25,755 bases of DNA from a virus. A program made the position numbers and the translations under genes. Location of the stretch: IMG/VR virus record IMGVR_UViG_3300025769_000739, positions 1 through 25,755 of that record. One strand, written 5' to 3'. The notes under the pieces are model-generated. The model had not been told where the DNA came from and did not search any database. It worked only from the letters and a program-made list of their open reading frames with translations. Of this stretch, positions 14,876-18,400 are shown in pieces. Position 1 is the stretch's first letter. Each line of letters opens with the position of its first letter.

Positions 14876-15766
14876 TTATTTAAAAGGGAATTCCCCGTCC
14901 ATCGAAGCGTCGAACTGGATGGGTTCAACGCCGCGTTGCTTAGGTTTGTTAGGGTTTCGATTCTCGACGGACGGGGAAACTTTTTTAACTTCTTTTGGTT
15001 CAGGCTCAACCGGTGTCGCTTCGACTTCGGAAATAACCTCGACTTCGGGTTGATGATTCGAAATAACATTTTTTAAAATCACATCTAAATCCGACTTAAA
15101 TAGTTCGGTTAATTTAAAACTTTCGTCCCGGTGGAAATACTTTCGAACGGCTTCCTTTAATTCCTCTTTACTCTTAAATCCCGCCTCTTTTGATGCGGCG
15201 TAAAGGGTTTTTAAATCCTCCTGGTCAATGTTACTTAGAATTTCATCGCTTGAATAAATACCCGAAAGGTCATTCGGGAATGCCTTCCTCAAGGCCAATG
15301 CTTCGGCGCATTTTGCGAGCATAAGCGCGGGCATAGTTGACCAAACTCCGGTTTTTTTCCCGTATTCCTTAAATAAGGCGACCGCCGTGATCGGGGTTGA
15401 GATTCCTTTTTTTCTAACACTCACACGGGCGGCGGCGGGAGGGGAATCCTTCAGCCAAACGTCAACCCAAACCCCATCCATCCCGCACCATTGCGCGGGT
15501 TCCTGGCCGTCATATTTTCCGGTACGTTCAGCAATAACCCGAAACCCATCAATGGAGGTTTGAATAATTGGGCGCCCGCCGCTTTTAATAAAATAAATTT
15601 GTCGGCTAAGGGGATCAAGGCCGGTTTTTGCGACGTAACCCATAAAGAGTTGAACCTCGCTGTCATTCGCGCCCTGGCAAATAACATTCTTAATTGTTTC
15701 GACTTGTTCTTTTGAATAATTTCCGACGGATAAACTTTTATCGGTTGTTTTAACTAGACTGTTCAT
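14876..15766 (-). CDS. bet: Bet / RecT-type single-strand annealing recombinase
   Basis: 296 residues. Strong lambda Bet-family matches: GLDPLSRQIYFI (49-60), TSIDGFRVIAERTGKYDG (70-87), WCGMDG.WVDVWL, PPAAARVSVRKKG and MLAKCAEALALRKAFP near 170-188. The protein anneals complementary single strands and promotes strand invasion in phage recombination. Residues ~190-250 are helical, followed by a Pro/Glu-rich linker. The last residues, MDGEFPFK, resemble the acidic tip of SSB (DDDIPF). No exonuclease partner of Exo type is seen here; the DUF1064 protein in the same operon may be the nuclease. AGAAGGGA lies before ATG 15766. Confidence 0.95.
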   Translation of the reverse strand: MNSLVKTTDKSLSVGNYSKEQVETIKNVICQGANDSEVQLFMGYVAKTGLDPLSRQIYFIKSGGRPIIQTSIDGFRVIAERTGKYDGQEPAQWCGMDGVWVDVWLKDSPPAAARVSVRKKGISTPITAVALFKEYGKKTGVWSTMPALMLAKCAEALALRKAFPNDLSGIYSSDEILSNIDQEDLKTLYAASKEAGFKSKEELKEAVRKYFHRDESFKLTELFKSDLDVILKNVISNHQPEVEVISEVEATPVEPEPKEVKKVSPSVENRNPNKPKQRGVEPIQFDASMDGEFPFK

Positions 15767-16594: not shown

Positions 16595-16785
16595 ACGGAA
16601 AACTTGAACCTTGCCCGGATTGTGGCGATCAACCAAAAATATCTATTAATAAAGAACGTGGGCGAGATACTTTCCAAATACTTTGTGCAAATTGCTATGA
16701 GGTCACGACCGAAGCCGCCGGAATATTATTTCATGGTGATTCTATCGCCGATGTGATTAATGAATGGAATGATTTTGCAGTTTAA
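16591..16785 (+). CDS. Lar-like restriction alleviation / zinc-ribbon protein
   Basis: 64 residues. It shows the Lar/Com-type layout: LEPCPDCG (C8, C11), a strand, LCANC (C32, C35), a Gly-rich turn and a final helix with 'a...WN' (ADVINEWNDF). Lar of the Rac prophage modulates host type I restriction; many short homologues of this shape are known only by similarity. The gene directly precedes the cytosine methyltransferase, so an anti-restriction role fits. ATG overlaps the upstream stop. Confidence 0.75.
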   Translation: MNGKLEPCPDCGDQPKISINKERGRDTFQILCANCYEVTTEAAGILFHGDSIADVINEWNDFAV

Positions 16786-16796
16786 AAGGGGGATTG

Positions 16797-17531
16797 ATGC
16801 TTTATGGCCTGGACTTATTTAGTGGAATTGGAGGAATCACAAAAGGACTTGAACAATGGGTTAAACCCATCGCCTACTGCGAGCAAGACAAATACTGTCA
16901 AGCGGTTTTGGCAAATCGAATCATCGACGGAAGTCTACCCAATGCCCCAATTTGGGATGATGTTAAAACGCTCGAAGGAAAAATGTTACCCGTTAAACCT
17001 GACATTATTTATGGGGGATTCCCTTGCCAGGACATTAGTGTTTGCGGGAATCAAAAGGGAATTGATGGCGAGCGAAGCGGATTATTTTTTGAAATTGTCC
17101 GACTTATTGAAGAAGTCCGCCCCGAATTTGTCTTCCTTGAAAATGTCCCAAACATTAGAACAAAAGGACTTGATCGCGTTATCCAAGAATTTACCCGCCT
17201 TCGGTATGATTTCCGGTGGACGATTGTTTCAGCCGCCGAAGTTGGCGCCCCGCACGTTAGGAAAAGGTGGTTCCTACTGGCCGACGCCAACATCAAGGGA
17301 CTGGAAGGGGGGGAGAACACCGGAAGGATTAAAAGCGGCGGGGAGAAATTCGTCGAATTCCCTACCGGACAAGGTGAACCATTTAAACGGGAAAACTGGC
17401 AAATTGAACCCGACGTGGGTCGAATGGTTGATGGGTTACCCTTTAGGGTGGACCGAATTAAAGCCTTGGGCAATGCGGTTGTTCCCGAACAAGTGTCCCA
17501 AGCATTTAAAAAATTGCTTTGCATGGAGTAA
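16797..17531 (+). CDS. dcm: C5-cytosine DNA methyltransferase
   Basis: 244 residues with all main motifs: I DLFSGIGG (6-13), IV GGFPCQDIS with catalytic C77, VI ENV (115-117), VIII SAAEVGAPHVRKRWF (145-159), X ALGNAVVPEQ (223-232). It methylates cytosine C5 using SAM. The stretch between motifs VIII and X that holds the target recognition domain is only ~60 residues, short for the family, so the recognised site is not predictable. ATG 16797 follows GGGGGA by three to four bases; TTG 16794 is an unlikely start. No cognate restriction enzyme is near, so it is probably protective. A 260-codon frame overlaps nearly all of it (16804-17586). Confidence 0.95.
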   Translation: MLYGLDLFSGIGGITKGLEQWVKPIAYCEQDKYCQAVLANRIIDGSLPNAPIWDDVKTLEGKMLPVKPDIIYGGFPCQDISVCGNQKGIDGERSGLFFEIVRLIEEVRPEFVFLENVPNIRTKGLDRVIQEFTRLRYDFRWTIVSAAEVGAPHVRKRWFLLADANIKGLEGGENTGRIKSGGEKFVEFPTGQGEPFKRENWQIEPDVGRMVDGLPFRVDRIKALGNAVVPEQVSQAFKKLLCME

Positions 17532-17586
17532 CAACAAAACGAAAGAAGGAATGAAAAAACATGAAAACTATAAACGTGGCGATTAA
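16804..17586 (+). CDS. Long second reading frame inside dcm (possible overprinted gene)
   Basis: 260 codons, open from an ATG seven bases after the dcm start, through the whole of dcm in the +1 frame, to 55 bases past its stop, ending inside parB. The C-terminal half reads like phage 'Dcm-associated' hypothetical proteins: LSKNLPAFGMISGGRLFQ, LAPRTLGKGGSYWPTPTSRD (147-166) and LNPTWVEWLMGYPLGWTELK (201-220). Those motifs lie exactly over dcm motifs VIII and X, so similar annotated proteins may themselves be out-of-frame reads of dcm genes. No separate ribosome site is seen, but it could use that of dcm. Whether it is translated is unknown. Confidence 0.35.
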   Translation: MAWTYLVELEESQKDLNNGLNPSPTASKTNTVKRFWQIESSTEVYPMPQFGMMLKRSKEKCYPLNLTLFMGDSLARTLVFAGIKRELMASEADYFLKLSDLLKKSAPNLSSLKMSQTLEQKDLIALSKNLPAFGMISGGRLFQPPKLAPRTLGKGGSYWPTPTSRDWKGGRTPEGLKAAGRNSSNSLPDKVNHLNGKTGKLNPTWVEWLMGYPLGWTELKPWAMRLFPNKCPKHLKNCFAWSNNKTKEGMKKHENYKRGD

Positions 17587-18400
17587 TCGCATTAAGAACT
17601 TAGGAAACACCCGTTCGTCAACCGGTGGACCCTCCATGAAGGAATTATGTCAATCCGTTAAAGATAATGGGATCATGACTCCCCTATGGGTTGCCAAAAA
17701 GGGAACCGGGTTTGTCTTAGTTGCGGGCGCAAGACGCCTGGAAGCCGCCGGGAAGATGGGATTGAAAACCGTTCCCGTCAACGTAGTCGAAGGAAACGAC
17801 CAGGAACTAACCGTTTTTCACTTGATCGAAAACATTCAGCGCGAAGACTTATCAGTTTATGAATTGGGTAAAGCTTGCGACGAGTTGAGAAGAAGGCACA
17901 AAATGGAACCTTCGGAAATTGCCGTTCGACTTGCTAAACCCTTGACCGAAATAAACACGGCTTTAAGCGTCGCAAGTTCTAAGATTCCCGAAGAAATTAA
18001 GGGGAAAATCGTTTCCTTTAATGGAAGGGATAAGAAAAAGAAAAAAGGCGGTATCCCTTCGGAGGCCGCGCGTTATATCCTGGACTATGGGCGCAATGTT
18101 AGCCGAAGCGGTGGGAAGGCATTATCGAAGGAATCCATCACGGAACTTTTAAAATTCGCGGGTTCAGATAAGGGAAGCCTTCCAAGAGTACGCGCCGCCG
18201 TTCAAGCGGCGAAACAAGGGATGGAAGTTAAACAAGCAATCAAAAAAGCGGATAAGGTCCAAACCGTGAATATATCCCTAACCCTGGATAAAAGCCGGGT
18301 TGCGAGAATGGAGAAGGCCACGGGGAAATCAATCAACACCCTTCTAAGGAAAGTCATCACTTCGGATCGAAGTCTTTCCAGGCTTCTTTTTACTAGGTAG
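17561..18400 (+). CDS. ParB-like nuclease/partition-domain protein
   Basis: 279 residues. N-terminal ParB/Spo0J domain: LGNTRS (14-19), ELCQSVKDNGIMTPLWV, VAGARRLEAA (54-63; GARR in place of the usual GERR) and ENIQREDLSVYE (90-101). The middle is HTH-like (SEIAVRLAKPLTEINTALSV). The end, VNISLTLDKSRVARMEKATG, suggests a small dimer or ribbon-helix-helix domain. ParB proteins bind DNA and CTP; no ParA is present, so plasmid-style partition is not supported and a regulatory or nuclease role is possible. AAGGA lies about ten bases before ATG 17561. Its start overlaps the second frame in dcm. Confidence 0.88.
   Translation: MKTINVAINRIKNLGNTRSSTGGPSMKELCQSVKDNGIMTPLWVAKKGTGFVLVAGARRLEAAGKMGLKTVPVNVVEGNDQELTVFHLIENIQREDLSVYELGKACDELRRRHKMEPSEIAVRLAKPLTEINTALSVASSKIPEEIKGKIVSFNGRDKKKKKGGIPSEAARYILDYGRNVSRSGGKALSKESITELLKFAGSDKGSLPRVRAAVQAAKQGMEVKQAIKKADKVQTVNISLTLDKSRVARMEKATGKSINTLLRKVITSDRSLSRLLFTR

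Follow-up and report, generated by a model that had tools for sequence, protein, structure and literature searches.

A gene nested in the +1 frame of phage dcm probably encodes the second subunit of a cytosine-C5 DNA methyltransferase

Introduction

What does an open reading frame that runs through the whole of another gene encode, if anything? The question is raised by the uncultivated virus record IMGVR_UViG_3300025769_000739, analysed here over its 25,755 bases (the window). Its cytosine-C5 methyltransferase gene dcm (16797-17531, plus strand) is overlapped along its length by an open +1 frame of 260 codons (16804-17586, plus strand), which, as given in a preliminary description, starts 7 nt after the dcm ATG (16797) and ends 55 nt beyond the dcm stop (17531). 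That description left two answers: either a second protein is encoded and conserved, or a family in the databases is an artefact of dcm. We refer to the dcm product (244 amino acids) as alpha, and to the nested +1-frame gene (a 260-amino-acid ORF) as beta.

Methyltransferases of this class may be divided over two chains. In M.EcoHK31I, the beta gene sits in an alternative frame within that of alpha. This enzyme (YGGCCR) has motifs I-VIII and X in alpha and motif IX only in beta (PMC3404938, summarising Lee, Kam and Shaw 1995); M.AquI is split after motif VIII, its beta chain holding the distal variable region and motifs IX and X (PMC3404938). Wholly overlapping C5-methyltransferase frames, with no role assigned, have been reported for S. 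thermophilus 5093-group phages, phage MM1 and Tn5252 (PMC5601072), and, that report apart, our literature search for methyltransferase genes nested in this way in phages turned up no paper that bears on them directly. The out-of-frame HNH in a phage methylase of ShiLan (PMC11855218) was considered and rejected, being an inserted homing element rather than this nested gene. Since overlapping frames have been published (PMC5601072) and the inner gene is annotated in some phage records, the kind of arrangement is already known: Lily gp63 is annotated as 'g62 internal gene', and Honeybear gp56 is nested in gp55. These two proteins and PHROG 1008 are homologues of beta that are named DNA methyltransferase without a stated role, and most nested copies examined carry no annotation.

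Results

Layout of the nested locus

A putative Shine-Dalgarno-like stretch, AAAAGGGGG (16784-16792, plus strand), is read from the sequence upstream of both starts, the ATG of alpha at 16797 and that of beta at 16804. Alpha carries the C5-methyltransferase motifs I, IV (PCQ with the catalytic cysteine, 17022-17030), VI (ENV), VIII (region GAPHVRKRWFLLAD, 17244-17285) and X (ALGNAVVPEQVSQAF, 17463-17507), motifs IV and VIII being placed by alignment. It matches PF00145 with an E-value of 9.7e-41 over residues 5-163 only, with motif X visible in the alignment. Along beta, all on the plus strand, there are an ATG ATG pair over the 'DDV' of dcm (16957-16962), where more distant homologues have their start region; a WPTPTSRDWKG module in the recognition region (17278-17310); and motif IX, LNPTWVEWLMGYPLGWTEL (17404-17460). 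Homologues of beta end after about residue 237, so that the last ~23 residues of the ORF in the window lie beyond them. No match to beta was found in Pfam or NCBIfam; it does match phrog_1008 (E = 8e-21, labelled DNA methyltransferase) and phrog_26627.

Both motifs named in the preliminary description are present in the +1 frame as described, and their proposed origin holds for one of them: LAPRTLGKGGSYWPTP does arise from dcm motif VIII in the +1 reading, whereas LNPTWVEWLMGYPLGWTELK does not come from motif X. The latter is the +1 reading of EPDVGRMVDGLPFRVDRIK, which lies just 5' of motif X (GNAVVP), at the place of motif IX.

Among the sequences aligned, the full-length dcm closest to that of the window shares 59% identity with it, and as there is no close relative in the collections examined, the window copy is judged by its family. 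By eye, a gene at 17561-18400 (plus strand) is ParB-like and begins within the tail of the beta ORF, so that three reading frames meet at 17561-17586; the protein encoded at 14876-15766 (minus strand) is RecT-like by eye.

The +1 frame is constrained in homologues

Viral loci were fetched by dcm queries (L096-L175, L176-L200 and L201-L280) to avoid choosing by the +1 frame, and further loci were found with the +1 protein (L001-L080 and L281-L360). The first two dcm queries were genes already known to have the +1 frame; the third was an alignment-based search of which the best 80 were kept, those most like the dcm of the window. Owing to this sampling, the results hold for this class of dcm genes rather than for all phage dcm genes. 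Where detected in the sampled sets, the +1 protein lay in the same register over dcm in 353 of 354 loci (a count in which some contigs are present in more than one set), and no standalone +1 family outside dcm was found in the sampled loci, the sole exception (L025) being a contig-end fragment of the split type described below. The nested gene is spread over viral contigs and genomes of several phyla. A wider draw of Gammaproteobacteria gave a match of any kind in 24 of 369 genomes, several weaker matches being full of stops. One Roseovarius MAG chromosome (OX638333.1) holds five seemingly identical nested loci (L303, L305-L308), as if multiple copies of one prophage or element were present.

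The gene in the window has no +1 stops, against a mean of 4.6 in 300 synonymous-codon shuffles that keep the dcm protein and codon usage fixed (p about 0.003). The chance of (61/64)^260, about 4e-6, quoted in the preliminary description was therefore overstated; because the single-gene value is suggestive and far from that figure, the case rests on the homologues. Within dcm residues 91-200, none of 154 viral genes chosen by dcm had a +1 stop; the shuffled expectation there is about 25 per 1000 codons. Stops were also nearly absent at residues 61-90 and 201-220, partly depleted before residue 50 (reflecting a subgroup whose +1 frame is open from the start of dcm onwards), as frequent as expected at 51-60, and more frequent than expected after 231. 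The real +1 translation outscored all 20 of its own shuffles in 77/77, 70/70 and 20/20 genes of the three dcm-chosen sets, the profile score in the first set being 202 bits for real and 90 for shuffled genes.

Codon choice told the same way. At dcm identities of 20-40%, where divergence is saturated, we asked how often residues that are the same also share their codon. The excess over expectation was -0.01 at the N end and 0.00 at the C end, and within the overlap it rose to 0.40 in the region past motif VIII and to 0.67 across LNPxWVEWLMG; synonymous constraint is thus confined to the overlap. Among 21 ordinary dcm genes used as controls (19 bacterial, together with those of phage KP15 and E. 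coli), neither marked stop depletion nor an excess score relative to shuffles was found. Codon shuffles, the positional stop map and the control genes together reject an artefact of chance or composition. Frequent +1 stops and undiminished synonymous divergence, which had been named beforehand as grounds for refutation, are not what the homologues contain, so of the two answers offered at the outset the encoded and conserved second protein is right and the database artefact wrong.

The two frames are selected in different regions

Changes in 71 independent close pairs were sorted according to what they do in each of the two frames (counting in the manner of OLGenie, with no multiple-hit correction, and limited to gap-free alignment blocks in the hypervariable stretch). 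Over dcm residues 1-48, 61-130 and 131-163, omega was 0.22, 0.29 and 0.31 for dcm and 0.99, 0.76 and 0.51 for the +1 frame. At residues 164-200 it was 1.06 (confidence interval 0.99-1.15) for dcm and 0.60 (0.51-0.70) for +1; at 201-220, the LNPxWVEWLMG segment with the lowest +1 value, it was 0.78 (0.63-0.96) and 0.22 (0.18-0.27), respectively; and after residue 226 it was 0.26 and 0.82. Pairs of at least 80% identity gave +1 values of 0.40 and 0.15 and dcm values of 1.14 and 1.03 for 164-200 and 201-220. These segment values indicate selection on dcm at motifs I-VIII and at motif X, with frame 0 drifting between VIII and X, where the +1 frame is selected. Both frames are therefore under protein-level selection, each in its own regions, and, beyond what the preliminary description had proposed, dcm is the drifting frame over the last third of the overlap.

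Of 290 genes, 191 have the N-terminal extension of beta (over dcm residues 4-48) open; as to its constraint the ratios are ambiguous, dNN/dNS being 0.92 and dSN/dSS 0.39. In genes open from there, the +1 ATG 7 bases past the dcm start is kept in a fraction of 0.68, compared with 0.33 after shuffling, and the codon before GLDLFSG is AAT or TAT in 63 genes and AAC or TAC in 5. In genes closed at the N end, the ATG over 'DDV' is kept at 0.54 against an expected 0.29. As the +1 frame is selected upstream of motif VIII too, initiation of its own is favoured for beta over a frameshift at that motif.

Split and fused relatives place motif IX in the +1 protein

In several phages alpha ends after motif VIII and a +1 ORF continues through the missing end: gp34 of Streptomyces phage Euratis ends LSPEFAEWMMGLDPGW...IGNGVVPHQAF, and gp79 of Mycobacterium phage Obama12 and locus L021 are built likewise. 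Hamulus and its relatives have this same C-terminal half joined in frame onto the N-lobe, in the order LLPTPxASD modules, LxAAFPEWMMGWPAGW and IIGNGVCPQQA. These natural fusions and splits put the +1 C-terminus directly 5' of motif X, which establishes the positions of motifs IX and X in such relatives, and the +1 profile matches the fusions at the motif IX segment with 97-98% probability. A structure predicted for one fusion (L416, pTM 0.78) aligns with M.HhaI over its full length (Z 22.9, rmsd 3.4 over 254 residues); the model is confident in the C-terminal part, with motifs IX and X, and of low confidence in the recognition region.

Direct comparison of beta with ordinary motif IX gave a weak match (E = 0.038), but one in register, GKLNPTWVEWLMGYPLG over RKLSPRECARVQGFPDT. 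Independently, a canonical motif IX occurs in the +1 ORF of the nested loci L467, L513 and, by eye, L515/L516 (MLPSEYEILQGFPEGW; LTPPEKERLQGFPEGW; LTTLEMERLMGWPDGH), which have motif X in frame 0 and in which no motif IX was found in frame 0. The +1 run exceeded all of 200 shuffles in L467 and L513, but not in the GC-richer L515/L516. From the fusions and splits, the profile matches and genes of the L467/L513 type, the +1 protein is best read as a subunit providing motif IX and the recognition region. A TL motif, P(STCA)PT(ILV)(TASV), has been described for recognition domains (PMC2413257), and judged by this consensus the WPTPTA module of beta appears TL-like. No match to the beta profile was found among PDB sequences, and AlphaFold2 gave no usable fold for beta alone (pLDDT 59.5, pTM 0.25), a prediction that would be compatible with a partner-dependent protein yet lends no support to one.

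Other arrangements were seen among the sampled loci. In L078/L079 (1910-2760) the dcm N-lobe continues in frame to a C-terminus of +1 type (278 amino acids), with motif X left in another frame, representing a natural fusion or a shared sequencing error. In L093 (Mycobacterium phage Ochi17 gp73/gp74) the annotation gives the N-lobe and the C-terminal part as separate genes, each in its own frame, and dcm looks frameshifted near residue 125. A second nested type (L514, L517, L518, L521-L526) has a +1 ORF with the segment SLSxVLExxVxxKYxLSxKAxxGILRRAxxRGKxLPxxL, which an ordinary dcm such as that of L368 has partly in frame 0; motif IX, where found in this type, is in frame 0, and the +1 run exceeds nearly all shuffles. 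A further nested variant, in L461 and L466 (Gammaproteobacteria), has a +1 ORF ending GQLNPAHSRWLMGLPxxW, with dcm frame 0 going on to RLRxYGNAxVAxVA.

Discussion

We consider it likely that the locus encodes a C5-methyltransferase made of two polypeptides from nested genes, of the same type as M.EcoHK31I, in which one stretch of DNA read in two frames would supply both subunits of one enzyme. Alpha, in frame 0, would provide cofactor binding and catalysis through motifs I-VIII, as well as motif X, with the stretch joining VIII to X serving as an unconstrained spacer. Beta would have a start of its own, either the ATG at 16804 or one of the internal ATGs (16957/16960), and would bring motif IX (LNPxWVEWLMGxPxGW) together with the region for target recognition, which holds the WPTPxARD module. 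Presumably the two chains form a single enzyme, whose role would be to methylate the phage genome, most likely in protection against host restriction. The hidden protein is thus probably the other half of the same enzyme, which the preliminary description had not foreseen, and most likely its DNA-recognition part.

Beta could instead be a real protein with a separate job, such as an inhibitor or an anti-restriction factor, overprinted on dcm by chance. Its N-terminal half, over dcm residues 60-163, is without a known counterpart in C5-methyltransferases and is under selection of its own (omega 0.76 and 0.51), as such a protein would be. We nevertheless find this improbable, given that beta is always co-located with dcm, that its C-terminus is fused in frame into single-chain methyltransferases before motif X, and that alpha is free of constraint exactly where beta is constrained. 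About equally improbable, in our judgement, is a programmed frameshift from dcm near motif VIII, which would yield a single chain with motifs I-VIII, the recognition region and motif IX. In-frame fusions of precisely this kind do occur naturally, and L078/L079 pass from the dcm N-lobe directly to the +1-type C-terminus; against a frameshift, the +1 frame is without stops and selected already 5' of motif VIII, the start codons of beta are kept, and a shifted product would lack motif X, which is found in frame 0 only.

That the +1 frame merely reflects how conserved dcm is and which codons it favours, with the database family an artefact, now seems barely credible. A conserved protein does yield some +1 similarity, as the roughly 90 bits of shuffled genes against the beta profile illustrate, and unrelated dcm genes give weak, stop-filled +1 matches. 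This reading is already contradicted by codon choice, which is constrained for the +1 protein within sharp limits and is not so constrained in ordinary dcm.

The two-subunit reading invites comparison with the known enzymes. As in M.EcoHK31I, alpha in the window has motifs I-VIII and X, both parts selected in frame 0 (omega 0.22-0.31 and 0.26), motif IX is on the second polypeptide (from the profile match to fusions, and L467 and L513), and that polypeptide lies in another frame inside alpha. The likeness is one of motif layout as described, and the system in the window is phage-borne. For M.EcoHK31I the recognition domain has been assigned to alpha, whereas selection places the recognition region of the window system in beta, frame 0 drifting (1.06, 0.99-1.15) over dcm residues 164-200 where +1 is at 0.60; this drift may equally call the published assignment into question. 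A search for EcoHK31I-like relatives gave four E. coli matches to a Salmonella phage query and two plasmid matches, none of which was identified as EcoHK31I itself. With M.AquI the window system shares the division of a C5-methyltransferase over two chains after motif VIII, and it differs in that motif X stays in alpha (frame 0), the conserved part of beta ends before it and the genes are nested. The split forms in the actinophages Euratis and Obama12 are nearer to M.AquI, motifs IX and X being on the second polypeptide there and in L021. The S. thermophilus, MM1 and Tn5252 case resembles ours in that one C5-methyltransferase DNA gives two products in different frames; unlike the window, P0093 has motifs IX and X both in frame 0, and its inner ORF is barely above its shuffles. 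Beyond these precedents, the present analysis tests for selection, delimits the inner gene, assigns the recognition region to beta and documents the spread across viruses and phyla.

Going further, it is about an even bet that, for a large class of phage C5-methyltransferases, DNA specificity resides wholly in the overprinted frame, with the frame 0 stretch between VIII and X a neutral spacer and new specificities arising as beta acquires or loses WPTP modules. If so, the 'EPxVGRVADGxP' of phage dcm would be a shadow of beta motif IX and not the reverse, and the recognition-domain assignment for alpha of M.EcoHK31I would need revision.

In phages and prophages of several bacterial phyla, about 500 bases encode two conserved proteins, the second of which is mostly unannotated or labelled as a duplicate methyltransferase. 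Because it is usually missed, frame 0 by itself may be too little for expressing or interpreting many phage dcm genes, and the reading of a target site from the apparent recognition domain of a phage dcm may be affected too. Nested dcm genes also offer a large natural data set on the constraint shared by two overlapping frames, and with them the origin of split methyltransferases becomes directly testable.
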